A stretch of 61,404 bases of DNA, from contig NZ_LMIW01000013.1 of NCBI RefSeq assembly GCF_001429185.1, positions 1 to 61,404 of the forward strand. Direction: 5' to 3'. Positions within the stretch are counted from its first letter, which is position 1. Every line of letters starts with the position of its first letter. This DNA is from Terrabacter sp. Root85 (lineage in GTDB: Bacteria > Actinomycetota > Actinomycetes > Actinomycetales > Dermatophilaceae). The notes beneath the pieces are model-generated. The model searched no databases. It saw only the letters and a program-made list of their open reading frames with translations, and was not told where the DNA came from. A program made the position numbers and the translations under genes. Of the stretch, positions 42,312-56,206 are shown piece by piece.

Positions 42312-43100
42312 CTACCAGGCGGTCCAGCCACCGTCGACGGCGACGACCTGACCGGTGACGTAGGCGGACGCGTCCGAGGCGAGCCACGTGACGACGCCGC
42401 GGAAGTCGTCCTCGGTGCCCATCCGGCCCAGCGGCGTGAGCTGCTCGTAGCGCTCGACGAACGACTCGTCCTGGCCGCGCGCGATGCCCCCGGGGGCGAA
42501 GGCGTTGACCCGCACGTCGGGCGCGAGCACCGTCGAGAGGTAGCGCGTCAGCTGGGCGATGCCTCCCTTGCTCGCCGCGTAGGCCGCGGGGTTGCCCATC
42601 CGGGTGCCCTCGTAGAGACCCATGTTGGGCCCGACGAGACCGTAGATGCTCGACACGTTGACGACGCTCCCGTGACCTGAGGCGGCAAGGAGGGGCGCGA
42701 GCTGCCGGGTCAGCGAGAAGGGTGCCGTGAGGTTGAGGGCCAGCGCCATCGCGAAGGCGTCGTCGGTCTGCTCCTCGAAGGGAACGGCATACCCGGGGAC
42801 TCCGGAGGTGCCGGTGAACGCGGCGTTGTTGACGAGGACGTCGCAGGCGCCGAGTCCACGGACGACGTCGACGACGCGCGAGATCCCTTGCGGGTCAAGA
42901 AGGTCGGCGCCGACGGGGACATGGTCGCTGCCGGGGAGCGCAGCGGCGGCTGCCGCGCAGCTCTCCTCGTCGAGGTCGACGACGACGACGCGGGCACCCG
43001 CCCTCGCCAGGGCGTCGGCGAGCACGCGGCCGAGCGGTCCGGCGCCCCCGGTCACGACGGCCGTGCGTCCGGTGAGCGCCGTCGTGGGCGTGGTCGTCAT
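42312..43100 (-). CDS. ptmA: Short-chain dehydrogenase (PtmA-like)
   Basis: A 262-residue SDR: NAD(P) motif TGGAGPLGR (17-25), NNAA, active Ser150/151 in NVSSIYG and the Tyr174-x3-Lys178 pair, ending VTGQVVAVDGGWT. It is the last gene of the PtmF-PtmB-PtmA run and overlaps the CMP-sugar synthetase by 4 bp, the same order as Cj1330-Cj1332 of Campylobacter jejuni. There PtmA belongs to the legionaminic acid pathway, with a proposed but not firmly defined early step. The assignment rests on gene order plus family. Confidence 0.85.
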   Translation of the reverse strand: MTTTPTTALTGRTAVVTGGAGPLGRVLADALARAGARVVVVDLDEESCAAAAAALPGSDHVPVGADLLDPQGISRVVDVVRGLGACDVLVNNAAFTGTSGVPGYAVPFEEQTDDAFAMALALNLTAPFSLTRQLAPLLAASGHGSVVNVSSIYGLVGPNMGLYEGTRMGNPAAYAASKGGIAQLTRYLSTVLAPDVRVNAFAPGGIARGQDESFVERYEQLTPLGRMGTEDDFRGVVTWLASDASAYVTGQVVAVDGGWTAW

Positions 43101-43882
43101 CGTGGGTCCTCCGTCTGGGCGATCGGGGCGGCGACGTCGAGCCACGGCAGCGTGATGAGCCCGGCGCCGATGAGGGCCTCGATGAGCCGGAACTCGTACT
43201 CGTCGTCGATGGAGAAGGCCTGGGCCTCGGGGATCTCGAGCCCTTCGTGGGTGCCCTCGTCGAACCACGAGCTCTCGAGGCGGCGCACGAAGTCGGCCCG
43301 CCAGAGGTAGAAGTTGCCGTTGATCCGCAGGAACCTGCCGACGTCCTGCCGTCGGGTGACGCCCGTGCCCGCCTCGAAGTAGCGGGAGAGCGCGCCGTCG
43401 CGGGACCCGTCGGGGCGCACGCCCACCCACACCGGGTTGAAGGTGGGTTCGGAGACGCTGATGACGCCGTCGAGGGCGGGCGTCGTGGCGAGGCGTCGGA
43501 CGGCCTCGGCCAGCTGGGACGGCACCCGGGAGGGACTCGTCGGGTCGAGGAGGAGCACCGCGTCGTAGGAGCCGCCCTCGTCGCTCTCGACCCACTCGAG
43601 GGCATGACGCACGACCGGAGCCATGGGGGTGTCGTCGGCCGCGAGCTCGGCCGGGCGCAGGAACGGGGCTTCTCCACCGTGGGCGCGCACGACCTCGGCG
43701 ATCTCGGCCGAGTCGGTCGTCACGACGCAGCGGGTGACCTCCGGCGTCATCGCCGCAGCACGGATGCTGTGGGCGATGAGGGGCAGGCCCCACATCGGAC
43801 GGATGTTCTTGCCGGGCAGGCCTTTCGAGCCGCCACGTGCCGGGATGACCGCGAGGACGCGGGGCGGGGTGTGGTCGGTCAC
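43097..43882 (-). CDS. legF: CMP-nonulosonate cytidylyltransferase (LegF/PtmB-like)
   Basis: A 261-residue CMP-sialic-acid-synthetase-type enzyme. It has the CTP-binding IPARGGSKGLPGKN loop (13-26), LIAHSIRAA, and the LLLDPTSPSR motif. It activates the free nonulosonic acid with CTP to CMP-sugar, normally the last cytoplasmic step before transfer. The C-terminal half contains NGNFYLWR. The GTG start overlaps the stop of the Gfo/Idh gene (GTGA), and the stop overlaps the SDR start. Specificity for legionaminic acid is inferred from the complete pathway next to it. Confidence 0.88.
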   Translation of the reverse strand: MTDHTPPRVLAVIPARGGSKGLPGKNIRPMWGLPLIAHSIRAAAMTPEVTRCVVTTDSAEIAEVVRAHGGEAPFLRPAELAADDTPMAPVVRHALEWVESDEGGSYDAVLLLDPTSPSRVPSQLAEAVRRLATTPALDGVISVSEPTFNPVWVGVRPDGSRDGALSRYFEAGTGVTRRQDVGRFLRINGNFYLWRADFVRRLESSWFDEGTHEGLEIPEAQAFSIDDEYEFRLIEALIGAGLITLPWLDVAAPIAQTEDPR

Positions 43883-44919
43883 GAGCCGTCCTCGGTGTCG
43901 GGGTCGGGGTGGGGGCCCTGCGACGCCAAGGCCCTGGCCTCGTCGCAGAGACGGACGGCGTCGATGCCGTCGCCCAGGGTGGCCGGCGCTCCCCGGGCGA
44001 TCCGCTGAGCCGCGGGGGACCACGGCTTGAGGTCGAGGGCCGCCCGCGCCTGGGTGCCCATGACGATGTCGCGGTCCAGGTCGTGCTCGAAGACCTGCTC
44101 GCTCACCTCGCCGTCGGAGGTCGTGTGCCGAACCATCGCGCGCGTGACGTCCCACTCGAGGATGCCGTCCGAGGTGTGGATGACGACCCCGCGCGACGTC
44201 GGGCGGGTGACGTAGTCGAGCCGCGCGGTCACGGTGAAGCGGTCGCGGGTGGTCCAGAGCAGCGTGGCGGCCTGCTCGGCCTCGATGTCGAGCGGACCGC
44301 TCGTCTCGAGGAACGAGCCGACGAGGTCGGGGCGGCCGAAGAGCACGCCGGCGTAGTCGATCTCGTGGACCATGTCGCGCAGCACACCGCCCTCGTCGCC
44401 ACGGGCGGAGTAGGACTCGCGGTAGTCGCGGTCGGGCCGCCAGTCCGGCAGCCACGACTGCGAGCGCACGTGGGCCGAGGCCGGTCCGTCGATGCGGCCG
44501 ACGAGCCGGCGCAGGTGGCGGAAGGCCTCGTGCGCCCGGAGCGGCGCGGCGACCCAGATGTCCTGGGCTCGCGGGTGGGCGCGGAGCACGGCCGCGTCGC
44601 GGGCCGACCCGGCGACGGGCTTCTCGACGAGGACCGACGCCGCACCGGCGTCGAGTGCCAGGACGGTGTCACTGACGTGCCGGGCGGTGTCGGTCGCGAC
44701 GACGACGAGCGCGCCCGGCAGGGCGCCCGGGCCCGTCGCGTCGTCGAGCAGGCGCGCGCCGGTGACGTCGTCGACGGCGCCCGACCCGAGCCCGCGGTCG
44801 CGGACCGGCCAGAGCGCGACGTCGGCGCCCTCCTGCCGGAAGACCCGCGCGTGCCGCTGCCCGATGGAGCCGGAGCCGCGCACGACCACGGGCATCGACG
44901 ACGGAGACGGGCTGGGCAC
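43879..44919 (-). CDS. ptmF: Gfo/Idh/MocA-family oxidoreductase (PtmF-like)
   Basis: A 346-residue protein with an N-terminal NAD(P) domain (GSGSIGQRHARVF, 15-27; VEKPVAGS) and a C-terminal alpha/beta domain with DMVHEIDYAGVLFG. It matches the family and position of Campylobacter PtmF in the legionaminic acid locus. The exact reaction is unknown; an early step supplying amino sugar phosphate has been proposed there. It is the first gene of the minus-strand operon, with GTG 6 nt after TAGCCT, and is divergent from the flippase gene. Confidence 0.82.
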   Translation of the reverse strand: MPSPSPSSMPVVVRGSGSIGQRHARVFRQEGADVALWPVRDRGLGSGAVDDVTGARLLDDATGPGALPGALVVVATDTARHVSDTVLALDAGAASVLVEKPVAGSARDAAVLRAHPRAQDIWVAAPLRAHEAFRHLRRLVGRIDGPASAHVRSQSWLPDWRPDRDYRESYSARGDEGGVLRDMVHEIDYAGVLFGRPDLVGSFLETSGPLDIEAEQAATLLWTTRDRFTVTARLDYVTRPTSRGVVIHTSDGILEWDVTRAMVRHTTSDGEVSEQVFEHDLDRDIVMGTQARAALDLKPWSPAAQRIARGAPATLGDGIDAVRLCDEARALASQGPHPDPDTEDGS

Positions 44920-44925
44920 ACCTGC

Positions 44926-44931
44926 AGGCTA
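44926..44931 (-). promoter_or_regulatory. -10 box of ptmF-legF-ptmA operon (TAGCCT)
   Basis: TAGCCT lies 6 nt before the GTG at 44919. It is about 75 bp from the -10 of the divergent flippase operon. Confidence 0.6.
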
Positions 44932-45006
44932 GAGGACGGCGCCGCGCACCGCTCAGGTCGCCGGGCACGACGCGGGTGGCTGAGCGGTGGGCCGGCCCCG
45001 CACCGG

Positions 45007-45012
45007 TACCTT
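45007..45012 (+). promoter_or_regulatory. -10 box of flippase gene (TACCTT)
   Basis: TACCTT lies 7 nt before the GTG at 45020; leaderless pattern. The 100-bp gap is the divergent control region of the whole nonulosonic acid locus. Confidence 0.55.
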
Positions 45013-45019
45013 CGAGCCT

Positions 45020-46456
45020 GTGACGAGCACGCCCGAAGGCACCGCGCCCACCGCCGCCCCCGCGAGCGGCTCGCTCGGAGCGCACTCGGTGGTCTACCTC
45101 GTCGGCACGGCGCTGCAGGGCCTCGGCGTGCTCCTCGTCCTGCCCTTCGCCACCCGGGTGCTCGGCGCCGTCGAGTTCGGTCGCGTCGCAACAGGTCTCG
45201 TCGTCGTGCAGATGGTCGGCACCATCGCCGCCGCCGGACTGCCGCAGGTCGTGCTCCGCGAGCACCACCGCGGTGCCGAGGGCCCACGGGTCGCGCGGGC
45301 CCTGGCCGGGACGATGGTGCTGCTGGCCCTCGGGCTCGGTGTCGTCGGCCTCGCGCTGGCACTGCTCCTCTCCGCCACCGGGCACGCGGACCTCCGACAG
45401 TGGGTGCCGCTCGTCGTCGCCGCGGTGGCACTGACGACGGTCGTGGCCGGCCAGACGCTGATGCGGGCGCGCCTCCAGCCCTGGGGCTTCCTCGCCCTCG
45501 CCGTGCTCGCCACCGTCGGGGCACAGCTCGCGGGACTCCTGGCGGCGCGGGGCGAGCCGACCGCGGGGACGTACCTCACGGCATACGTCGTCGTCGTCGT
45601 GCTGGCTGCCGTCCTCGCCCTCGTCCTCGGCCGTCCGCTGCCGCCCACGGTCGAGCGCGAGCGGGTCCGGGCGGGCATCCGCCTGGCCACGCCCCTCCTG
45701 CCGCAGGCGGCCGCGATGCTCGGCCTGCTCTCCGGGGACGTGCTGCTGGCCAGGGTGCTCGTCGGCGAGGCCGGGGCGGGCAGCTACCAGGTGGCGCTGC
45801 AGCTCGGGAACATGCCGTTCGTGCTCGCCGTCGCCCTCTTCAACGCGTGGGGGCCGCTCGTGCTCTCGCACCCCATCGACCGCCGCTGGGCGTGGACGGC
45901 CCGCACGGGCACCGCCCTGACGACCGTGGTCGCGGCGGGCGCGGCGGGGGTGGCGCTGCTCGGGCCGTGGCTCGTCGCCGTCATGGCCGACCCCGGCTTC
46001 GACCACGTCGCCATGGTCGGCGCGCTCGGGATCATCTGCACCGTGTCGGTGTCGTACATGCTCTACCAGGGCTCGTCGCTCGCCGTGCTCGACGCCGAGC
46101 GCACCGGCCGGCTCGCCTGGGCCGCGCTCATCGCGCTCGCGGTCGTCGTCCTCGTCGCGCTCTGGCTCGCGCCGCGGTCGGGCGCGACGGGTGGGGTCGT
46201 CGGCGTCGCGATCGCCAAGGCCGTGGGCTACGTCGTGCTCATGGCCCTGACGACGTGGTTCGCGCGGACCCACTCGCCGATGCGCTGGCCGCCGCGGGTG
46301 GCCGTCGTGGCGCTCGCCGGTGTCGCGCTCGCCCTCGTGGGTGCGGTGCTGCCGCTGGAGGGGCCGGCTGCGTGGGTGCGCGTCGCACTCGCCGCCCTCG
46401 TCGGGGCGGGCGCCGTGGCCGTCGCGCCGCGGATCCTGCGCGTGCTGCGCGGATAG
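45020..46456 (+). CDS. Polysaccharide flippase (Wzx/MOP superfamily)
   Basis: A 478-residue membrane protein with 12 to 14 hydrophobic segments and few charged loops. It shows MOP-superfamily features (the first helix with LVLPFATRVLGAVEFGR and the TPLLPQAAAMLGLLSGD segment opening the second half). It probably flips a lipid-linked glycan unit across the membrane. Its place at the head of the nonulosonic acid operon suggests the cargo carries that sugar. GTG at 45020 is chosen by spacing to TACCTT and because the first membrane helix follows a short Ala/Pro tail. Confidence 0.85.
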   Translation: MTSTPEGTAPTAAPASGSLGAHSVVYLVGTALQGLGVLLVLPFATRVLGAVEFGRVATGLVVVQMVGTIAAAGLPQVVLREHHRGAEGPRVARALAGTMVLLALGLGVVGLALALLLSATGHADLRQWVPLVVAAVALTTVVAGQTLMRARLQPWGFLALAVLATVGAQLAGLLAARGEPTAGTYLTAYVVVVVLAAVLALVLGRPLPPTVERERVRAGIRLATPLLPQAAAMLGLLSGDVLLARVLVGEAGAGSYQVALQLGNMPFVLAVALFNAWGPLVLSHPIDRRWAWTARTGTALTTVVAAGAAGVALLGPWLVAVMADPGFDHVAMVGALGIICTVSVSYMLYQGSSLAVLDAERTGRLAWAALIALAVVVLVALWLAPRSGATGGVVGVAIAKAVGYVVLMALTTWFARTHSPMRWPPRVAVVALAGVALALVGAVLPLEGPAAWVRVALAALVGAGAVAVAPRILRVLRG

Positions 46457-46519
46457 GATGAGGCGCTCGCCCGGCTCGCCTCGATCCGGCACGCACCGAC
46501 ACGCAGGAGAGACGCTTTC

Positions 46520-47941
46520 GTGGTGACACCGCTCGTCCACATGGGGTTGGGCTACGACGACCTCCTCGTCCCGGCCCTCGTGCACGCGGGTTTCGAGACG
46601 AAGGACCTCATCCTCGTCGTCCGCACGGACGCCAACCTCGCGTGGGTGCGCCGGCACGCGCCGCGCGCCACGACCGTCCGGCTGCCGTATGCCGCCGCGC
46701 GCAAGGCCAACGTCGTCAGTGGCCTCGCGCCCCACGCCGCCCTCAAACGGGCCTGCGCCGGGGTGGGTCTCGACCCCCTCGACCTGCTCGTGTCCGAGCG
46801 GGCGTTGCGCCGCAACCGGGTCGACACCGCGATGAACTTCCTCAACCTCGCCGCCGAGGAGCTCGAGGCGGCCATCGAGGGTCGCGGCCCCCTCCTGGCC
46901 CTCGTCGAGTTCACCGTGACGTCCGAGCTGCTCACGGCCGGCCTCGTGACCCACCACGGTGGCCTCGCGACCTGGCCGCGCGGCATACGCCTCCCGTCCG
47001 ACCGCTTCGGCCTCATCGGCGCGCCCAAGGGGATCACCCTGTGGGAGCGGCAGGTCGAGGACCCGTCGGCCCTCGCCGCCGGTCAGGCCTTCATCGACAC
47101 GTGGCGGGCCGAGCACGGCCGGCCGATGGGCTTCGCCCGCAACCTCGAGGTCGAGACCGGCCAGGAGATCTGGCGGCTCGCGAGCGACCGCATCAAGGAG
47201 TTCGCCGTCGACCGGGGTGCGAACCTCCAGCTTCCCCGGCCCTCGGACTACGCCCGGCTCCCGTGGCTCAACCCCGTCAAGGCGCGGCTCAACCTGCGCG
47301 AGTACCAGGACCGTCGCTGGGACCCGGTGCCCGAGAAGTTCGTCTTCCTGCCGCTGCAGGTGCAGCCCGAGTCGAGCGCCGACGTCATGGGCCAGGAGTG
47401 GCGCGACCAGGCCTACACCGCCCGCGTGCTCGCCGAGGCGCTCGCACCACTCGACATCGGGGTCGCCGTCAAGGAGCACGCGCACTTCATGTGGCGCCGC
47501 GACCCCGACTACTGGCCGCAGTTCGACGCGCACCCCAACATCGCCACGATCGACCCCTTCGCCGACTCGCGCGAGCTGATGAAGCAGGCGGTCTTCACCG
47601 TCACCGCCACCGGCACGGTCGGCCTCGAGGCGGGGCTCCTCGGCCTGCCCGTCGTCACGGGCGCCGAGATGCCGTGGAGCGGCCTGGGCAACGTCGCGCA
47701 GCTCGAGTCGCCCGACGACCTGACCCGGTTCGTCGCCGACCGCGGCTGGGAGTCGCTGCGGGCCGACCAGGCCTCGATCGACGAGTGGTTCGTCCACGAC
47801 TACGTGCGCAACTCGTGGGAGGGCCTCGTGCTCGACCCGCCGCGAGTGCCCGCCGTGCTCGAGCCCGACAACATCCGCAAGGTCGGCGGCGCGCTCGGCG
47901 AGGCCGCGGCCTCGCTCGGCCACCGGGGCGGACCCGCATGA
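46520..47941 (+). CDS. Surface carbohydrate biosynthesis protein, putative transferase
   Basis: A 473-residue soluble protein I cannot place with certainty. The segment PEKFVFLPLQVQPES, followed by KEHAHFMWRR and VTATGTVGLEAGLLGLPVV, resembles capsule polysaccharide (KpsS/KpsC-like) and other GT-B proteins of surface glycan loci, in which the Gly-rich and Glu-containing C-terminal part binds the nucleotide sugar. The position between the flippase and the CMP-sugar genes makes it the best candidate for the nonulosonic acid transferase. The GTG has AGGAGA upstream. It overlaps the acetyltransferase gene by 4 bp. Confidence 0.7.
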   Translation: MVTPLVHMGLGYDDLLVPALVHAGFETKDLILVVRTDANLAWVRRHAPRATTVRLPYAAARKANVVSGLAPHAALKRACAGVGLDPLDLLVSERALRRNRVDTAMNFLNLAAEELEAAIEGRGPLLALVEFTVTSELLTAGLVTHHGGLATWPRGIRLPSDRFGLIGAPKGITLWERQVEDPSALAAGQAFIDTWRAEHGRPMGFARNLEVETGQEIWRLASDRIKEFAVDRGANLQLPRPSDYARLPWLNPVKARLNLREYQDRRWDPVPEKFVFLPLQVQPESSADVMGQEWRDQAYTARVLAEALAPLDIGVAVKEHAHFMWRRDPDYWPQFDAHPNIATIDPFADSRELMKQAVFTVTATGTVGLEAGLLGLPVVTGAEMPWSGLGNVAQLESPDDLTRFVADRGWESLRADQASIDEWFVHDYVRNSWEGLVLDPPRVPAVLEPDNIRKVGGALGEAAASLGHRGGPA

Positions 47942-48582
47942 CGGGCGACGGCACCGGCTGGGTCGTCCTCGGCGCCGGCGGCCACGCGCGCTCGGTCGTC
48001 GACGTCCTCGAGCGCGCCGGTCACGCCGTCGTCGCGGTCTCGGGCGCCGTCCCGGCAGGCGCGTCCTGGCACGTCGACGTGCTCGTCGACGACCGTCAGG
48101 CCTTCGAGCTCCTCGCGGCGCAGGGACTCCACGCGGTCGTCGCCATCGGTGTCAACCGGGCTCGCGCGCGGCTCGTGCGAGAGCTCGTGGCACGCGGGAT
48201 CTCGGTCCCGCCCGTCGTCGCCGCGACCGCGACGGTCTCTCCCCGCAGCGTCCTCGGGGCCGGTTGCGTCGTGCTCGAGCACGCGCACGTCGGACCCTCG
48301 AGCACCCTCGGTGAGGCAGTGGTCGTCAACACCGCGGCGGTCGTCGAGCACGACTGCACCGTCGGCGTCGGCACCCACGTCGCGCCCGGGGCGGTGCTCC
48401 TCGGTGCCGCGTCCGTGGGCGAGCTGACCCTCGTCGGCAGCGGCGCACGCGTCCTTCCCGGCGTCACGGTCGGGTCGGGCGTCACCGTCGGGGCCGGCGC
48501 CGTCGTCACCACACCCGTCGCGGACGGCGAGACCGTCGTCGGCGTCCCCGCAGCCACGCGCCCCACCGGAGGCACCGCATGA
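47938..48582 (+). CDS. legH: NeuD/PglD-type sugar acetyltransferase (LegH candidate)
   Basis: A 214-residue trimeric acetyltransferase: N-terminal Rossmann part with LGAGGHARSVVDVL (11-24), then a left-handed beta-helix built from hexapeptide repeats (about 95-200), with His138 in VVEHDC as predicted base. PglD/NeuD family members N- or O-acetylate amino sugars or sialic acids. Between the transferase-like and LegI genes (4-bp overlaps on both sides), the best fit is N-acetylation of the 4-amino sugar made by LegC. O-acetylation of the final acid is the alternative. Confidence 0.8.
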   Translation: MTGDGTGWVVLGAGGHARSVVDVLERAGHAVVAVSGAVPAGASWHVDVLVDDRQAFELLAAQGLHAVVAIGVNRARARLVRELVARGISVPPVVAATATVSPRSVLGAGCVVLEHAHVGPSSTLGEAVVVNTAAVVEHDCTVGVGTHVAPGAVLLGAASVGELTLVGSGARVLPGVTVGSGVTVGAGAVVTTPVADGETVVGVPAATRPTGGTA

Positions 48583-49637
48583 GCGACCACCTGAACGCCG
48601 TCCACCCGGTCGCGATCGGCGATGTCGAGGTCCCGACCCCCGGTGACGTCTACGTCATCGCCGAGGCCGGGGTGAACCACAACGGCGACATCGAGCTGGC
48701 CCACCGCCTCGTCGACATCGCGGTCGCGTCCGGCGCGGATGCGGTGAAGTTCCAGACGTTCTCACCCGACAAGCTCGTCTCGTCTGCGGCCGCGACGACG
48801 CCCTACCAGCGTGACCGCGGGGGTAGCGCCGACCAGCGCAGCCTGCTCGAGGCCCTGACCCTGCCCAAGGAGGCGTGGGTCGAGCTGCGCGACCACGCGA
48901 CCGAGGCGGGGACGACCTTCCTGTCGACGCCCTTCGACCTCGACAGCGCCGAGATGCTCGTCGATCTCGGGCTGCCCGCGCTCAAGGTCAGCTCTGGAGA
49001 GCTGACGAACCTGCCCTACCTGCGTGAGATGTCCCGACTCGGGGTCGTCCTGCTCGTCTCGACGGGCATGGGCACCCAGGACGAGGTCGAGGCGGCCGTC
49101 GAGGCCTGCGCCGACGCGCCGGGCCTCGTCCTCTTCCACTGCGTGTCGGCCTACCCGGCACCGGTGGAGGAGTGCAACCTGCGGGTCATCCCGCGCCTGA
49201 CCGAGCTGCACGGCATACCCGTGGGGTGGTCCGACCACACGCCCGGGCTGACGACGGCGCTCGGCGCCGTGGCGCTCGGGGCGCCGATCCTCGAGAAGCA
49301 CTTCACGAGCGACCGCACCCTCCCCGGCCCCGACCACCTCGCCAGCCTCGAGCCGGACGCGCTCACCGACTACGTCGCGACGACGAAGCAGCTCGCGCTG
49401 GCGCTCGGCGACGGCGTCAAGGTGCGCATGCCGTCGGAGGAGGAGAACGCCGTCCTCGTCCGGCGGTCGTGGCACGCGGCGCACGCGATACCGGCCGGCA
49501 CGGAGCTCGCGGGCACCGACCTGCACCTGCTGCGCCCCGAGGGCGGCGTCAGCCCCGCCGTCGACATCCGCGGACGCGTCCTGGCCCGCGCGGTCGAGGC
49601 CGGAGCCCCGGTCACCGACGCCGACCTCGTCGGCTGA
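48579..49637 (+). CDS. legI: N-acetylneuraminate/legionaminate synthase (NeuB family)
   Basis: A 352-residue NeuB-type enzyme that condenses phosphoenolpyruvate with a 6-carbon amino sugar to a nine-carbon acid. The TIM barrel opens with IAEAGVNHNGD and contains AVKFQTF, LKVSSGELTNLPYL, FHCVSAYPAP and the GWSDHTPG loop; EKHFTSDR and the C-terminal SAF (antifreeze-like) domain follow from about residue 290. Overlaps the acetyltransferase stop by 4 bp. The epimerase, dehydratase and aminotransferase genes that follow favour legionaminate over sialate. Confidence 0.9.
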   Translation: MSDHLNAVHPVAIGDVEVPTPGDVYVIAEAGVNHNGDIELAHRLVDIAVASGADAVKFQTFSPDKLVSSAAATTPYQRDRGGSADQRSLLEALTLPKEAWVELRDHATEAGTTFLSTPFDLDSAEMLVDLGLPALKVSSGELTNLPYLREMSRLGVVLLVSTGMGTQDEVEAAVEACADAPGLVLFHCVSAYPAPVEECNLRVIPRLTELHGIPVGWSDHTPGLTTALGAVALGAPILEKHFTSDRTLPGPDHLASLEPDALTDYVATTKQLALALGDGVKVRMPSEEENAVLVRRSWHAAHAIPAGTELAGTDLHLLRPEGGVSPAVDIRGRVLARAVEAGAPVTDADLVG

Positions 49638-49640
49638 CCC

Positions 49641-50861
49641 GTGGCCCCCACGCACACGGTCGCCGTCTTCGTCGGGACCCGCGCCGACCTCGGACCGCTG
49701 TCGCCGGTGCTCGAGGCCCTGCAGTCGGCGAACGACGTGACCCTGCGCGTCCTGACCGGGGTGATGTATGCCGCCGACGACCTCGTCGCGGCCCTGCCCT
49801 CGAGCGTCACGGCGGACGAGTGGCGCGGGGCCGTCGTGCCGCTCGCCGAGCCGATGACGGCCGTGACGGTGGACGCCCAGCTCGAGCAGGGTGCGCTGCT
49901 GGCGCGCGCCTGCGGACGGGCGCTCCGGGACGAGCACGTCGACGTCCTCGTCGTGCTCGGTGACCGCTGGGAGCTGCTCTACGTCGTGCCTCCCGCCGTC
50001 CTGCTCGGGGTGCCGGTCGTGCACCTGCACGGGGGAGAGGTGACCGAGGGGGCGCTCGACGAACGGGTCCGCCACGCCGTCACCAAGCTCGCCGACCAGC
50101 ACTGCGTCGCATCCGAGGACGCCGCGGCGCGGGTGCGCCAGCTCGGCGAGCCGGCCGACCGCGTCCACGTGACCGGCGCGCCCGGCCTCGACCGGCTCGC
50201 GACCGCGTCGCCGATCGCGGACGCCGACCTCGGCGAGCTGCTCGGCACGACCGTCGAGCGACCGCTCGGCCTCTTCACCTACCACCCGCCGACCGCCCAG
50301 CCCGATGCCCCGGTCGGGCAGTGGGCGCGCGAGGCCGCCGAGGCTGCGCTCGCCGCGTGCGGCACCGTCGTCGCCACCCACCCGGGCATGGACGAGGGGC
50401 GCGACGAGATCCTCTCGGCGCTGACCGGCCTCGCGGCACGCGAGCCCCGCCTCCGGCTCGTCGCCGCCCTCGGCCGTGACTACCCGCGCGTCCTCGCGGC
50501 CGCCGACGTCGTCGTCGGCAACTCGAGCTCGGGCGTCATCGAGGCCGCGACCCTGCACGTGCCGGCCGTCGACATCGGCGAGCGTCAGCGCGGTCGGCTG
50601 CGGGGCGACAACGTCGTCCACGCGGCCGAGGGCCGGGAGGCCGTCGAGGCCGCGCTGCGCACCGCCCTCAGCCTCCGCTGGCGGGAGCACTCGGCGCACG
50701 TCGCCAACCCCTACGGCACGGGTACGGCCAGCGCCGCCATCCTCGATATCGTTCGGACAGCGGCGCTCGCCCCACGGGCCAAGCACTTCGTGGACCTGCA
50801 CCCGGCACGGGTGGTGGGCCGGCAACGGGCGCGCCGCACGAACGAGGAGGAAGAGGAGTGA
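49641..50861 (+). CDS. legG: Hydrolysing nucleotide-sugar 2-epimerase (NeuC/LegG family)
   Basis: A 406-residue GT-B-fold enzyme of the hydrolysing UDP-GlcNAc 2-epimerase family. It has VGTRADLGPLSPV at the start, VLGDRWELL, HLHGGEVTEGALDE, and the nucleotide-binding GNSSSGVIEA motif. In the legionaminic route it removes the nucleotide and inverts C2 of the diamino sugar. That it belongs to the NeuC family, and not PseG, is one reason to call the product legionaminic and not pseudaminic acid. GTG start 3 bp after legI; the stop overlaps the next start. The C-terminus ends in a run of Glu. Confidence 0.9.
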   Translation: MAPTHTVAVFVGTRADLGPLSPVLEALQSANDVTLRVLTGVMYAADDLVAALPSSVTADEWRGAVVPLAEPMTAVTVDAQLEQGALLARACGRALRDEHVDVLVVLGDRWELLYVVPPAVLLGVPVVHLHGGEVTEGALDERVRHAVTKLADQHCVASEDAAARVRQLGEPADRVHVTGAPGLDRLATASPIADADLGELLGTTVERPLGLFTYHPPTAQPDAPVGQWAREAAEAALAACGTVVATHPGMDEGRDEILSALTGLAAREPRLRLVAALGRDYPRVLAAADVVVGNSSSGVIEAATLHVPAVDIGERQRGRLRGDNVVHAAEGREAVEAALRTALSLRWREHSAHVANPYGTGTASAAILDIVRTAALAPRAKHFVDLHPARVVGRQRARRTNEEEEE

Positions 50862-51913
50862 CAGCGCGAGACCTGCGCGCGGCGTGCGCGCCGACCACCG
50901 CGACGATCCGCGACGCCCTCGAGGTCGTGGACCGCAGCGGCAACCTCGTGTGCCTGCTCGTCGACGACGAGAACCGCCTCGCCGGGCTGCTCACCGACGG
51001 CGACCTGCGCAGAGCCTTCCTCAAGGGCACGAGCCTCGACGACGCCGCCCTCGACCACGCCACCCGGACGCCGCACTTCGTCGCCGCCGGGTCACCGCGG
51101 GCGCTCGTCCTCGACCTCATGCAGGCCCTGCGCATCTCTGCCGTGCCCGAGCTCGCCGACGACCGCACCCTCGTCGGCCTGCACACCCTGTCGGACGTCG
51201 TCGGTTCAGCGCCGCTGCCCAACGTCGCCGTCGTCATGGCCGGTGGTCGCGGCACGCGCCTCGGCGACCTGACCAAGGACACCCCGAAGCCGCTCATGAC
51301 CGTCGCGGGCCGCTCGATCCTCGAGTGGATCGTCCTCGGTCTCGTCGGTGACGGCATCCGCGAGATCTACGTCAGCGTCAACTACCTCGCCGAGCAGATC
51401 GAGGAGCACCTCGGGGACGGTTCCCGCCTCGGGTGCACGGTCCGCTACCTCCGGGAGGACCCGGAGCGACCGCTCGGCACGGCCGGCTCCCTGACGCTCC
51501 TGCGCGACGAGCGGCCCGACCTCGAGCACGCCGTGCTCGTCATGAACGGCGACCTCATGGTCGAGTTCGACGCGAGCGACCTGCTCGACGCCCACCGGCG
51601 GACGGGCGCCGCCGTCACCGTCGCGACCCGCACCTACCAGCACGAGGTGCCGTTCGGCGTCGTCGAGAGCACCGACGGGCGCGTCACCGGCGTCTCGGAG
51701 AAGCCGACGCTGAGCTTCGACATCAACGCCGCCGTGTATGCCGTCGAGCCGCGGGCGCTCGCCTGGCTGCCCAGCGGGCGCGCCAGCACGATGCCGGGCC
51801 TCGTCGAGACGTGTCTCGCGCGCGACGAGCCGGTGACGGCGTGGCCGATCCAGAGCGACTGGATCGATGTCGGCACCCCGAAGGACCTGGCCCGCGCGAA
51901 GGGCGAGTCGTGA
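50858..51913 (+). CDS. ptmE: CBS-domain sugar nucleotidyltransferase (PtmE-like)
   Basis: A 351-residue fusion. The first 120 residues contain a CBS pair (LVDDENRLAGLLTDGDLRRAF; a second degenerate copy ending LVGLHTLSDVVG). The rest is a nucleotidyltransferase with VVMAGGRGTRLGDLTKDTPKPL (from about 126), a metal-binding NGDL and DWIDVGTP at the end. This CBS-transferase order is that of Campylobacter PtmE, the glucosamine-1-phosphate guanylyltransferase that makes the GDP-linked precursor of legionaminic acid. The GTG overlaps the legG stop; the stop overlaps the legB start. Confidence 0.87.
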   Translation: MTARDLRAACAPTTATIRDALEVVDRSGNLVCLLVDDENRLAGLLTDGDLRRAFLKGTSLDDAALDHATRTPHFVAAGSPRALVLDLMQALRISAVPELADDRTLVGLHTLSDVVGSAPLPNVAVVMAGGRGTRLGDLTKDTPKPLMTVAGRSILEWIVLGLVGDGIREIYVSVNYLAEQIEEHLGDGSRLGCTVRYLREDPERPLGTAGSLTLLRDERPDLEHAVLVMNGDLMVEFDASDLLDAHRRTGAAVTVATRTYQHEVPFGVVESTDGRVTGVSEKPTLSFDINAAVYAVEPRALAWLPSGRASTMPGLVETCLARDEPVTAWPIQSDWIDVGTPKDLARAKGES

Positions 51914-53079
51914 GCGCCCGCGCGAGCGACGACGTGACCGCCACGGTCACTGCTGACGTGGCAGACGGCATACGAGCACCCATGGACGACGAAAAGGCAG
52001 CTGTGACAACACTTTCCGCTCAGAGCACGACCGGTGAGATCCCCGACATCGAGCTGACCGCGCGACCTGTCGAGGGCTCGGTCGCCGGCAAGACCGTCCT
52101 CGTCACGGGCTCCGACGGCTTCATCGGGTCGCACGTCGTCGAGCGGCTGCTCGCCGACGGGGCGCACGTGCGCGCCTTCTGCCTCTACAACTCCAACGGC
52201 TCGACGGGGTGGCTCGACGAGTCCGACACCTTCCGGGCCGCGGTCCGCGACGGCCAGGCCGAGGTCGTCCTCGGCGACATCCGCGACCCCGAGCACGTCA
52301 TGGCGACGACCGAGGGCGTCGACGTCGTGCTCCACCTCGCGGCGCTCATCGCGATCCCCTTCTCCTACGTGGCTCCCCGCTCCTACGTCGAGACCAATGT
52401 CATCGGCACGCTCAACGTGCTCGAGGCCGTCCGTCGCCACGGCACGCCGCGGATGGTCAACACGTCGACCTCCGAGGTCTACGGCACGCCCGAGTCGGTG
52501 CCGATCACCGAGGCGCACCCGCTGCGCGGCCAGTCGCCCTACTCGGCGACGAAGATCTCGGCCGACAAGATGTGCGAGTCGTACGCACTGTCCTTCGAGA
52601 CGCCGGTGACGACGCTGCGCCCGTTCAACACGTTCGGGCCCCGCCAGTCGACGCGCGCCGTCATCCCGACCGTCCTGTCGCAGCTGCTCGCCGGTGCGAG
52701 CCAGGTCAAGCTCGGCGACGTCACGCCGAAGCGCGACTTCACCTTCGTCGCCGACACGGCCGACGGCTTCGTCCGCGCGGCTCTGGCCGACGTCGCGCCC
52801 GGCACGACGATCCAGCTCGGCACCGGGCGCACCGTCTCCGTCGGCGACGTCGTCGAGCTGTGCCGCAAGGTCACCGGCAGCGACGCCGAGATCGTCACCG
52901 AGAGCGATCGCATCCGGCCCGAGGGGTCCGAGGTGCAGATCCTGCTGTCCGACCCGTCGCTCGCCAACGAGGTGCTCGGCTGGGCGCCCACCGTGTCGCT
53001 CGAGGAGGGCCTCGCCGCCACCGCCGAGTGGCTGCGGCCGCGCGTCGACCCCGAGACGGCCGGCCGGTACCACCGGTGA
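51910..53079 (+). CDS. legB: Nucleotide-sugar 4,6-dehydratase (LegB-like)
   Basis: An NAD-dependent extended SDR with TGSDGFIGSH (66-75 counting from GTG 51910), the NTSTSEVYGTPE segment, and the catalytic Tyr211-x3-Lys215 (YSATK). It makes the 4-keto-6-deoxy amino sugar. The start is doubtful: the GTG at 51910 overlaps the previous stop, like every neighbouring junction, but gives a 60-residue tail not typical of LegB. ATG 51982 and GTG 52003 (with aaaagg upstream) lie in a locally AT-richer stretch and would give more normal lengths (365 or 358 residues). It overlaps legC by 4 bp. Confidence 0.87.
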   Translation: MSARASDDVTATVTADVADGIRAPMDDEKAAVTTLSAQSTTGEIPDIELTARPVEGSVAGKTVLVTGSDGFIGSHVVERLLADGAHVRAFCLYNSNGSTGWLDESDTFRAAVRDGQAEVVLGDIRDPEHVMATTEGVDVVLHLAALIAIPFSYVAPRSYVETNVIGTLNVLEAVRRHGTPRMVNTSTSEVYGTPESVPITEAHPLRGQSPYSATKISADKMCESYALSFETPVTTLRPFNTFGPRQSTRAVIPTVLSQLLAGASQVKLGDVTPKRDFTFVADTADGFVRAALADVAPGTTIQLGTGRTVSVGDVVELCRKVTGSDAEIVTESDRIRPEGSEVQILLSDPSLANEVLGWAPTVSLEEGLAATAEWLRPRVDPETAGRYHR

Positions 53080-54257
53080 CCACGACCGGCGAGGCGCACG
53101 CGCCCGGAGCGCGCGGGCCCGAGGGCACGATCCCGCTCGCGGTCCCCAACATCGGCGAGCTCGAGCGCCGCTACGTCCTCGAGGCCGTCGAGTCGGGCTT
53201 CGTCTCGTCCGTCGGACCCTTCGTCTCGGAGTTCGAGCGGCGCTTCGCCGAGCGGGTCGGGTCGAAGCACGCCATCGCGTGCGCGACCGGCACGGCCGCG
53301 ATCCACATCGGCCTGCTCCTGCTCGGGGTCGGTCGCGACGACGACGTCGTCTGCTCCGACTTCACGTTCGTCGGCTCGGTCAACCCGATCGCCTACTGCG
53401 GCGCGCGGCCCGTCCTCGTCGACGCCGAGTGGACGACGTGGAACATCGACCCTGCCCTGCTCGCGGCCGAGCTCGACCGCCGCGCTGCCGCGGGGGAGGC
53501 GCAGCCCAAGGTCGTCGAGATCGTCCACGTGCTGGGGCAGCCCGCCGACATGGGACCGCTCATGGACGCCTGCGACCGGCACGGCATACCCGTGCTCGAA
53601 GACGCCGCGGAGTCGCTCGGAGCGACGTGGACGTCCGGTCCCTACGCCGGGCGGCACACCGGCACCGTCGGCCGCATCGGCTGCTTCTCGTTCAACGGCA
53701 ACAAGATCGCGACGACCGGCGGTGGCGGCATGATCGTCACCGACGACGACGACCTCGCCGCGCGCGCCCGTCACCTCACGACCCAGGCGAAGGTGCCCGA
53801 CGTCGGCTACCTCCACGACGAGGTCGGCTACAACTACCGGCTCACCAACATCGCTGCCGGGCTCGGGCTCGCCCAGCTCGAGCGGCTCGACGAGTTCGTC
53901 TCCGCCAAGCACCGCATCGCGGCCCGCTACGACGCGGCCTTCGCCGACCTCCCGCTCGTCCTGCCGCCGCGGGTCGAGGGCCTCGACGCGACGTACTGGC
54001 TCTACTCGGTCCTCGTGCCCGAGGCCGACGGGCGCGGTCGTGACGAGTTCCTCGACCACCTCAACAGGCTCGGGGTCGGGGCGCGCGCGCTGTGGCGGCC
54101 GCTGCACGACCAGCCGCCGTTCCTGTCGGCGCCCCTCGTGGGTGGCGCTGTCGGTGACGGCCTCTTCGCCCGAGGCCTCTCGCTGCCCTGCGCGACCGAG
54201 CTGACCGACGCCGACCAGGACCGCGTCATCGCGGCGGTGCGCTCCTTCTTCGTCTAG
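53076..54257 (+). CDS. legC: PLP-dependent sugar aminotransferase (LegC-like)
   Basis: A 393-residue DegT/DnrJ/EryC1-type aminotransferase. The cofactor lysine is Lys210 in FNGNKIATTGGGG, with EDAAESLGA upstream binding PLP. It adds the 4-amino group to the keto sugar from LegB. The sequence opens IPLAVPNIGELERRYV and keeps SDFTFVGSVNPI, typical of the LegC/PseC-like group. Last gene of the plus-strand operon, GTG overlapping the legB stop. No clear terminator follows in the 62-bp gap. Confidence 0.9.
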   Translation: MTTTGEAHAPGARGPEGTIPLAVPNIGELERRYVLEAVESGFVSSVGPFVSEFERRFAERVGSKHAIACATGTAAIHIGLLLLGVGRDDDVVCSDFTFVGSVNPIAYCGARPVLVDAEWTTWNIDPALLAAELDRRAAAGEAQPKVVEIVHVLGQPADMGPLMDACDRHGIPVLEDAAESLGATWTSGPYAGRHTGTVGRIGCFSFNGNKIATTGGGGMIVTDDDDLAARARHLTTQAKVPDVGYLHDEVGYNYRLTNIAAGLGLAQLERLDEFVSAKHRIAARYDAAFADLPLVLPPRVEGLDATYWLYSVLVPEADGRGRDEFLDHLNRLGVGARALWRPLHDQPPFLSAPLVGGAVGDGLFARGLSLPCATELTDADQDRVIAAVRSFFV

Positions 54258-54319
54258 GCCTGCTTCGCCCGGGCCGGACGGCCGACGCACCGCGCCACGG
54301 GGTGGGGCAGGATGTCGTC

Positions 54320-56206
54320 GTGGAGATCGCCATCGGGCTGCTCGCGATCGCAGCCACCGTCCTCGGGGGGTCCTGGCTCGCCGACCGCTTCGACCTGCCG
54401 CCGCCGCTCGTCCTCATCGTCATCGGCATCCTCGGGTCCTACCTGCCGTTCGTGCCCGAGGTGGCCCTGAGCCCCGAGGTCGTGCTGCTCGGCATCCTCC
54501 CGCCCCTGCTGTACGCCGCCGCGATCCAGACGTCGCTCGTGGACTTCCGCAACAACCGGGGCGTCATCCTCAGCCTGTCCGTCGGGCTCGTGCTGTTCAC
54601 GGCCCTCGGGGTGGCGCTCTTCCTGCAGTGGGTGCTCGGCCTCGAGTTCGGGGTCGCCTTCGCCATCGGCGCCGTCGTCGCTCCGCCCGACGCGGTCGCG
54701 GCCACGGCCGTGGGCCGCCGCATCGGGCTCCCACGCCGGCTCGTGTCCATCCTCGAGGGGGAGTCGCTCGTCAACGACGCCACGGCCCTCGTCTCCCTCC
54801 GGACGGCGCTGGCCGCGGCGGGTCTTGCGTCGGGGGTCTCGTCCGGCGGGGTGTCCTTCGGTGGCGTCGTGCTCGACTTCGCCTGGGCGTCGGTCGGGGG
54901 CATCGCGATTGGCGTCGTCGTCGCGCTCGTCGTGTCGGTGCTGCGCCGGCACTTCTCGACCGAGCCCGCCTTCGACACGGTGCTGTCGTTCATGGTGCCG
55001 TTCGCGGCCTACGTCCCGGCGGAGGAGCTGCACGCCTCAGGCGTCATCGCCGTCGTGACGGCCGGTCTCGTCCTCGGCCACAAGTCGCCGCGCACCCAGA
55101 CCGGCGCCTCACGCCTCAGCGAGCGCATCAACTGGACCTCGATCCAGTTCCTCCTCGAGAACGCCGTCTTCCTCCTCATCGGGCTGCAGGTCTTCTACGT
55201 CATCGCCGACGTCCGCACCTCGAGCCTGTCCGCCGGGCAGATCACGCTGGCCGCGGTCGGCACGCTCGTCGCCGTGCTCGTCCTGCGGCCGCTCTGGATC
55301 GTGCCGTTCCGCTTCCTCAGCACGCGGGTGTTCCGCATCGAGGCCCACGCTCCGTGGACGCACACCGTCGTCCTGTCGTGGGCCGGCATGCGAGGCGTGG
55401 TGACGCTCGCGGCCGCCCTGCTGCTGCCCCCGGAGACTCCGCACCAGAAGGTCCTCGTCCTCATCGCGGTCGTCGTCACGATCGGCACGCTGCTCATCCA
55501 GGGCACGACGCTGCCGGCCTTGGCCCGATGGCTCGACGTGCGCGGGCCCGACCCGCGCGAGGACGCGCTCCAGGCGGCCACCGTGCTGCAGGCCGCGACC
55601 CGGTCCGGCCTCGATGAGCTCGACCGGATGGAGGGCGTCGACGACGCGACGCGGGAGACGCTGCGGTCGCGGTCCGAGGACCGGCTCAACCAGATGTGGG
55701 AGCGGCTCGGGCCCCGCAGCGGCAACGACGACGAGACGCCGAGCGTCCGCTACCGACGCGCCCGGATGCAGATGCTGCAGGCGGAGCGCGACGAGGTGCT
55801 CCGGCTGCGCGACGAGGGGCGGGCCGACCACGTCGTGCTGCGCGTCGTCCTCAGCACGCTGGACCTCGAGGAGACCATGCTCGACCGCATCGACGACCAG
55901 GAGAGCCGCCTGGCAGAGAGTGAGATGTTGCCCGTGGACACGATCGAGGCGCCCTGCGAGCACCTCCAGGACACTGACTCGTGCGTCGAACCGCGCACGC
56001 CCGAGGGCTGCGAGGAGTGCCTGCGCGACGGCACGACGTGGGTGCACCTGCGCCTGTGCCTCCAGTGCGGGCACGTCGGCTGCTGCGACTCCTCCGAGAT
56101 GAAGCACGCCACCGCGCACTTCCACGAGACGCAGCACCCCGTGATGCGCTCCATCGAGCCGGGTGAGGCCTGGCGCTGGTGCTTCGTCGACGAGGTCGTC
56201 GGCTGA
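54320..56206 (+). CDS. Na+/H+ antiporter with C-terminal UBP-type zinc finger
   Basis: A 628-residue protein. Residues 1 to about 410 are a CPA1/NhaP-type antiporter with 11-12 membrane helices, including GAVVAPPDAVAATA and the ESLVNDATALV segment whose Asp-Asn residues carry the ions. A cytoplasmic helical part rich in Glu/Arg follows (430-545). The last 75 residues form a UBP-type zinc finger with Cys/His pairs (CEH, GCEECL, CLQCGHVGCCDS, HATAHFHETQHPV), a fold known for ubiquitin binding in eukaryotes. Start at GTG 54320 is preferred over 54302 by its ribosome binding site (cagga). It may adjust Na+/pH balance; what the finger binds is unknown. Confidence 0.9.
   Translation: MEIAIGLLAIAATVLGGSWLADRFDLPPPLVLIVIGILGSYLPFVPEVALSPEVVLLGILPPLLYAAAIQTSLVDFRNNRGVILSLSVGLVLFTALGVALFLQWVLGLEFGVAFAIGAVVAPPDAVAATAVGRRIGLPRRLVSILEGESLVNDATALVSLRTALAAAGLASGVSSGGVSFGGVVLDFAWASVGGIAIGVVVALVVSVLRRHFSTEPAFDTVLSFMVPFAAYVPAEELHASGVIAVVTAGLVLGHKSPRTQTGASRLSERINWTSIQFLLENAVFLLIGLQVFYVIADVRTSSLSAGQITLAAVGTLVAVLVLRPLWIVPFRFLSTRVFRIEAHAPWTHTVVLSWAGMRGVVTLAAALLLPPETPHQKVLVLIAVVVTIGTLLIQGTTLPALARWLDVRGPDPREDALQAATVLQAATRSGLDELDRMEGVDDATRETLRSRSEDRLNQMWERLGPRSGNDDETPSVRYRRARMQMLQAERDEVLRLRDEGRADHVVLRVVLSTLDLEETMLDRIDDQESRLAESEMLPVDTIEAPCEHLQDTDSCVEPRTPEGCEECLRDGTTWVHLRLCLQCGHVGCCDSSEMKHATAHFHETQHPVMRSIEPGEAWRWCFVDEVVG

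Follow-up and report, generated by a model that had tools for sequence, protein, structure and literature searches.

A complete legionaminic acid gene set around a Wzx-type flippase and a candidate legionaminyltransferase in Terrabacter sp. Root85

The stretch analyzed here, 61,404 nucleotides of Terrabacter sp. Root85 (contig NZ_LMIW01000013.1; hereafter the window), carries at 42312-54257 a locus of eleven genes, three on the minus strand and eight on the plus strand, as judged by frame reading and scans with hidden Markov models (HMMs). The locus probably makes cytidine monophosphate (CMP)-activated legionaminic acid (Leg) for use in a cell-surface glycan, with a protein designated X as the predicted transferase and a Wzx-type flippase turning its product outwards. 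The first-pass annotation of this DNA had described a complete Leg gene set in two divergent runs with 4-bp overlaps at most junctions. All nine Leg-set families were found in intact frames, and the gene content read from the sequence is thus confirmed as complete. The coordinates agree with the overlaps as well: the minus run PtmF, LegF, PtmA overlaps by 4 bp at each junction and the plus run from LegH to LegC at four of five, with a 3-bp gap between LegI and LegG. Two genes between the arms, encoding the flippase and X, were missing from the earlier list. The genes are as follows.

42312..43100, minus: PtmA-like short-chain dehydrogenase (SDR); PF13561/PF00106
43097..43882, minus: LegF, CMP-legionaminate synthetase (cytidylyltransferase), GTG start; PF02348 68.7 bits, TIGR03584 PseF 112.9 bits
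43879..44919, minus: PtmF-like Gfo/Idh/MocA oxidoreductase; PF01408 and PF22725 over cut-off
44987..46456, plus: Wzx-type oligosaccharide flippase (Polysacc_synt); PF01943 39.1 bits
46520..47941, plus: X, proposed legionaminyltransferase; probable remote relative of KpsS1 (glycosyltransferase (GT) family GT118), KpsC (GT107) and WbbB (GT99)
47938..48582, plus: LegH, NeuD/PglD-type N-acyltransferase; TIGR03570 175.3 bits (cut-off 160.8), PF17836
48579..49637, plus: LegI, legionaminic acid synthase (NeuB family); PF03102 258.7 bits, NeuB 345.5 bits
49641..50861, plus: LegG, hydrolysing nucleoside diphosphate (NDP)-sugar 2-epimerase (NeuC family); TIGR03568 277.8 bits (cut-off 235.9)
50858..51913, plus: PtmE, CBS-domain nucleotidyltransferase, probable synthesis of guanosine diphosphate (GDP)-N-acetylglucosamine (GlcNAc); PF00571 and PF00483
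51910..53079, plus: LegB, NDP-GlcNAc 4,6-dehydratase; TIGR04180 416.1 bits (cut-off 475)
53076..54257, plus: LegC, pyridoxal phosphate aminotransferase; TIGR04181 382.8 bits (cut-off 420), PF01041

The span of LegB assumes a GTG start; an alternative ATG start lies at 51982. Purifying selection is apparent on all eleven genes, with dN/dS of 0.055-0.435 in four pairwise comparisons.

LegB, LegC, LegH, LegG, LegI and LegF, the genes of a CMP-Leg pathway, occur together in the locus. Among NCBIfam models, those for LegB and LegC scored highest with the two respective proteins, at 416 and 383 bits, and the NeuC and NeuD scores exceed their own cut-offs; all four scores, like that of NeuB, lie well above chance level. 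The best NCBIfam match of LegF was PseF at 112.9 bits, under the cut-off of 205.7. PtmE, PtmA and PtmF are all present, as in the Campylobacter-type pathway, which Schoenhofen reportedly described in 2009 as GDP-linked. The possibility was considered that the product is pseudaminic acid (Pse). The LegI synthase scored 345.5 bits with the NeuB model vs. 229.1 with PseI. In a tree of 14 synthases, built without N-acetylneuraminic acid synthases, LegI clustered with synthases of Leg loci while six PseI split off at 100/100; a long-branched Mariluticola synthase from a pse locus fell outside the six-PseI group. This tree and the presence of LegB instead of PseB argue against Pse.

A tblastn search with PtmF found relatives on 10 plasmid records. 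The three regions that were read, all alphaproteobacterial, are Leg loci, each with LegB, LegC, NeuC, NeuB, an acetyltransferase, a nucleotidyltransferase, PtmF, a cytidylyltransferase and an SDR or 'oxidoreductase'. The order PtmF, cytidylyltransferase, SDR or 'oxidoreductase' is the same in all three, the last gene being an SDR in the Azospirillum and Rhizobium plasmids and an 'oxidoreductase' in the Sphingomonadaceae plasmid; the nucleotidyltransferase adjoins PtmF in each (CBS domain unchecked in those copies). Plesiomonas has the same Leg gene set, with PtmA adjacent to LegF, and its flagella carry Leg, according to the part of PMC4481668 that was available. The joint occurrence of these nine families in the three plasmid loci and in Plesiomonas bears out the Campylobacter-type pathway that had been assigned to the locus.

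At E 0.001, neither Pfam nor NCBIfam had a family matching X; a permissive scan gave, among others, LpxB at E 0.015. Its sequence relationships suggest that X is a remote relative of the nonulosonate and 3-deoxy-D-manno-oct-2-ulosonic acid (Kdo) transferases KpsS1 (GT118), KpsC and WbbB. A broad X-family profile (A5) that includes distant relatives reached, among solved structures, KpsC at 3e-12 and then, at 3e-4, WbbB entries (5fa0 and the 8cs entries, which we take to be WbbB). The Capsule_synth model was passed by four of the five X-like relatives scanned (L115, L143, L144 and L125:6504-8093), L123 failing. A further candidate relative, L146:12453-13940, lies next to neuB in Azospirillum and is labelled 'surface carbohydrate biosynthesis protein'; it lacks most conserved motifs, has no Capsule_synth match and was left out of A5. 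X aligned with a KpsS1-like frame of A. baumannii over 168 of 473 residues, in the C-terminal part, at about 24% identity (E 3e-11). The frame is unannotated and was identified by a Tyr-Glu at residue 132 and by its place 1.2 kb behind the PseI gene, presumably the expected position of KpsS1. Glu130 of X aligns with Glu132 of this frame, preceded by Val in X and not by Tyr, and Glu occupies the column in 8 of 12 aligned proteins. In the accessible portion of PMC12887879, Glu132 of the KpsS1 Tyr-Glu pair is proposed to be the catalytic general base.

Scanning genomes with the X alignment gave 17 loci, 16 of them real; the remaining match, in L142 (Marinimicrobia), was excluded from the counts because the frame there is unrelated to X and looks like a proline dehydrogenase. 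Wzx adjoins X in all 16 named relatives, and 13 have the whole Leg set. Seven of these belong to the group of the window, namely Terrabacter Ter38, Root181, aerolatus, tumescens and MAHUQ-38, Terracoccus sp. 273MFTsu3.1 and Intrasporangiaceae URHB0013; six more are two Humibacillus xanthopallidus and four Intrasporangium. The three without it are Humibacillus DSM 29435, a Humibacillus metagenome-assembled genome and Arsenicicoccus piscis. In a second genome set, which overlaps the named one, X was present in 13 of 58 genomes including the window's own, and in 9/9 of the genus. Twelve X regions were read, the window's included, with the Leg set in ten and not in two (G024 and G034). Within the genus the set is complete in 8/8 regions, namely the window and seven others; the ninth genome, G002, has a 6-kb contig at the locus and was left out of this count.

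Farther afield, a search of 396 phylum genomes with the X profile gave matches in two, the window's and G325. The G325 homologue (E 2.9e-20, 24% identity) sits within a Pse cluster that also holds a flippase gene and PseI besides PseF-, PseC- and PseB-like genes. The class of G325 has an X-like gene in 4 of 246 genomes (G325, G531, G110 and G477); the stretch read includes a NeuB-family gene in G325, G531 (PseI) and G110 (together with PseB- and PseC-like genes). Searching 72,556 plasmid records by tblastn with X yielded two matches, both in pse loci and one directly behind pseI. The search with the X relative in L144 gave eight records including itself, seven having a NeuB or PseI gene within 4 kb; the set holds two near-duplicate pairs (Klebsiella and Acinetobacter), and by genus the figure is 5/6. 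Most X-like genes checked therefore lie near nonulosonate genes, in two phyla. Two side observations were made. In another class of the phylum, L125:6504-9661 encodes two tandem X-like proteins beside PseI-, PseG/H- and LegB-like genes. NZ_CP077849.1 and NZ_CP104448.1, listed as A. baumannii plasmids, are 3.7 and 4.1 Mb, a chromosome-like size.

X is accordingly proposed as a legionaminyltransferase candidate on the strength of its relatives and its setting. Several observations weigh against the proposed pathway and role. LegB, LegC, NeuB and LegF score under the NCBIfam equivalog cut-offs (475, 420, 400 and 206). X reaches Capsule_synth (PF05159) at E 0.28, with 11 bits vs. a threshold of 20, and the PF05159 search of this genome gave no match. 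A narrow X profile (A3) reached KpsC only at E 0.38 and did not find WbbB, and Glu130 is absent in 4 of the 12 family members aligned. Nonulosonate synthases occur widely in the family, in 24 of 34 genomes, so that their presence in X carriers is weak evidence alone. G477 has an X-like gene and no NeuB gene in the stretch read, and the X-like gene of S. sojae has no NeuB gene within 12 kb on either side. Finally, Wzx and X stand without adjoining Leg genes in 4 of the 17 loci compared (the 16 named and G034), so that X is not strictly tied to Leg.

Among the four Leg-less carriers, three have Pse genes within 30 kb of X, the fourth (L141) being on an 11-kb contig. In G024 and G034 Wzx and X stand between their usual neighbours with no Leg genes there, and a PseI gene 81 and 83% identical, respectively, to that of T. 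aerolatus lies 25-29 kb away; Arsenicicoccus has PseB, PseC and PseI upstream of Wzx-X, at a distance of a few kb. We read Wzx-X as a transfer-and-flip pair that could be fed by Leg or by Pse. X would then be a legionaminyltransferase of a new GT family in the KpsS1/KpsC/WbbB superfamily, forming with Wzx a module that different relatives supply with different nonulosonates: Terrabacter, Intrasporangium and Humibacillus xanthopallidus with Leg, Arsenicicoccus and genomes such as Humibacillus DSM 29435 with Pse. This fuller proposal is tentative and falls a little short of probable. Its main rival holds that the pair is unrelated to either sugar: an older Wzx-X glycan system around which the Leg genes merely settled, X being no Leg transferase. 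The persistence of Wzx-X in G024 and G034, flanked as elsewhere but with no Leg genes, speaks for it, as does the X tree, which separates Leg from Leg-less carriers once (85/95) and needs only one change of Leg presence, so that a single later gain of the Leg arms fits. It is nonetheless rather doubtful given the Pse genes in three of four Leg-less X genomes (G024, G034 and Arsenicicoccus), the X homologues that in Pseudomonadota and another actinobacterial class lie mostly in nonulosonate loci, and X being the only glycosyltransferase candidate seen in the locus. The history of X was also set against the species tree for Leg content; the same split could not be rejected with the flanking LLM gene (p-AU 0.47), and no discordance is therefore claimed. 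Instead of Leg5Ac7Ac itself, the product might be a different nonulosonic acid of this type, either an isomer of Leg or a derivative with another 7-N-acyl group. LegH is NeuD-type, its acyl group cannot be read from the sequence, and in the clusters of A. baumannii related modules yield Leg5Ac7R, 8-epi-Leg and acinetaminic acids, as stated in the text available from PMC9676051. No extra epimerase module was seen in the locus, however, and its nine genes match the set found in loci whose annotation names LegB and LegC, which makes such a product unlikely. An amidino derivative is also unlikely, because no match to the WbuX amidotransferase was found in this genome (the control matched in 4 genomes, none above cut-off).

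The destination of the sugar was considered from the gene content of the genome, estimated as 100% complete. No match in it was found to Flagellin_N or FHIPEP (FlhA), whose controls matched in E. coli and B. subtilis among others, or to the MptE-like domain, presumably the Maf domain, whose control matched only in archaea. The pair needed for flagellin glycosylation, flagellin and a Maf transferase, was thus not found, and the earlier view of a non-flagellar cell stands for this genome. Because flagellin, FlhA and Maf matches are lacking, Leg is likely a surface-glycan sugar. Placement on flagellin or pilin would accord with the use of the same pathway genes in Campylobacter flagellar glycosylation and with the motility ascribed to some Terrabacter strains in the accessible text of a taxonomic paper (PMC6113628). 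It is very improbable in view of the negative flagellin, FlhA and MptE-like searches and of the Wzx beside a transferase candidate, which suggests lipid-linked assembly. A teichulosonic-type wall polymer, suggested in the first-pass annotation and here taken as a wall glycopolymer with Leg as a backbone unit, has more in its favour: the same source, as far as available, reports teichulosonic acids in Kribbella walls, a teichoic-like exporter cluster (TagF-like, cytidine diphosphate (CDP)-alcohol and TagD-like genes) lies 3 kb beyond the window, and the Pse genes of relatives sit at such a cluster. The Leg locus itself has Wzx and not an ATP-binding cassette (ABC) exporter, and no polymerase or phosphotransferase was recognised in it, so a teichulosonic role appears somewhat unlikely.

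For the surface glycan that we favour, we infer every reaction, the exact acyl group, the donor and acceptor of X and the final carrier, as follows. PtmE would make NDP-GlcNAc, by analogy with Campylobacter GDP-GlcNAc, and PtmA and PtmF would act in this precursor segment. LegB would dehydrate NDP-GlcNAc, LegC would then aminate C4 and LegH would acylate the C4 amine. LegG would hydrolyse and epimerise the LegH product, LegI would condense the resulting sugar with pyruvate, and LegF would activate Leg with CMP. With CMP-Leg as donor, X would add Leg to a lipid-linked acceptor produced elsewhere, after which Wzx would flip the X product outwards. The gene set and order, their conservation, the apparent remote kinship of X and the lack of flagellin, FlhA or Maf-type matches are themselves features of the sequence.

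The first-pass annotation had called a set of this kind unusual in an actinomycete, which overstates the case: it is uncommon but not unprecedented in the phylum, besides being complete throughout the genus regions read. A LegB match of at least 390 bits, a line of our own choice placed at a gap in the scores, was found in 21 of 396 phylum genomes including the window's, and 4 of 396 pass the curated cut-off. Twenty regions from 19 of the other 20 genomes were read (G158 was left out, and some contigs are very short). LegB, PtmE, LegC, LegG and LegI occur together in G280 (with PtmA and PtmF), G333 and G340 (LegC cut by the contig end), giving at least 4 of 396 genomes with the full set, the window's included, as a lower bound. 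Other Gram-positive cases of Leg are B. subtilis spores (PMC7439481, in its available part), C. botulinum flagella and an E. faecium glycan. In twelve further loci (L095, L098-L103 and L105-L109) the stretch read encodes a LegB-class dehydratase but neither LegI nor LegC, and nine of them have a PtmE-like nucleotidyltransferase nearby; the two enzymes perhaps serve another purpose there. A second NeuB gene is present in four of ten Leg-bearing genomes searched, though not in the window's; identity to the T. aerolatus PseI (63-95%) or HMM matching assigns each of the four to the Pse type.

The locus is flanked on the left by a luciferase-like oxidoreductase and on the right by a sodium/proton exchanger and then a RecQ-like helicase, by frame reading. 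The exchanger (54302-56206) has an odd domain pair with a C-terminal zf-UBP zinc finger, and in 13 of the 16 named relatives the locus is likewise followed by a related gene. In G024, a PMT_2-like membrane protein (L025:4950-6461; E 0.00024, under cut-off) lies beside Wzx-X in the place occupied by the Leg minus arm in other genomes. The teichoic-like export cluster lies 3.1-11.3 kb past the right end of the window (L015:3109-11273) and comprises a GT2, a TagF-like protein, an ABC-2 permease and ATPase, two CDP-alcohol transferases, a further GT and a TagD-like cytidylyltransferase. A comparable ABC exporter is found next to Pse genes instead in G005 (T. aerolatus), G008 and G029. An unannotated protein (VHHANHFYGHAHIMARY...) is encoded in Pse loci at L060:9157-10290, with look-alikes in L057, L058 and L061; the L060 copy has no Pfam match, and it is perhaps a further Pse transferase.

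Leg in Gram-positives is already known, and the pathway here follows a known type; the locus adds an actinobacterial lineage to the Leg producers predicted from genomes. No report of Leg in Terrabacter and related X-bearing genera was found in a literature search that had most subscription journals outside its coverage and few queries naming Terrabacter, and no wall-sugar analysis of Terrabacter was found in the literature searched. Information on Leg-using transferases "is very limited in general", and Maf4 is named as a putative one, in the portion of PMC11356810 (2024) available. X is thus the part worth testing, a concrete and conserved candidate whose orthologues seem to meet Leg or Pse. 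If X is indeed a legionaminyltransferase, its orthologues at 72-98% identity would be a natural set for studying the choice between Leg and Pse donors.

Compared with known systems, the locus has PtmA, LegF, PtmF, PtmE, LegH, LegI, LegG, LegC and LegB in common with the Campylobacter and Plesiomonas CMP-Leg pathway, and PtmA, LegF and PtmF are adjacent in that order in Plesiomonas too (PMC4481668, Table 5, in the part available). It differs in the order of the plus arm, in the Wzx and X between the arms and in a genome without a flagellar or Maf match. The B. subtilis sps pathway also belongs to a Gram-positive Leg maker, but as described in the available text of PMC7439481 it is linked to uridine diphosphate, begins with SpsM and not LegB, and serves the spore crust, not a Wzx-linked locus. 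The Pse loci of the same family (T. aerolatus and Arsenicicoccus) would make the same kind of sugar, some of them near the same Wzx-X pair, whereas PseB, PseC and PseI replace LegB, LegC and LegI. The GT118 Pse transferase KpsS1 of A. baumannii, as represented by the KpsS1-like frame, has its Glu132 in the alignment column of X Glu130 and is likewise near nonulosonate genes; however, the likeness is confined to the 168-residue stretch, X is accompanied by Leg genes in most carriers and X remains under the Capsule_synth threshold. KpsC and WbbB, the beta-Kdo transferases that are the best solved-structure matches of the broad X profile, also use CMP-ulosonate donors, although their donor is Kdo and the narrow profile gives KpsC without significance and WbbB not at all.

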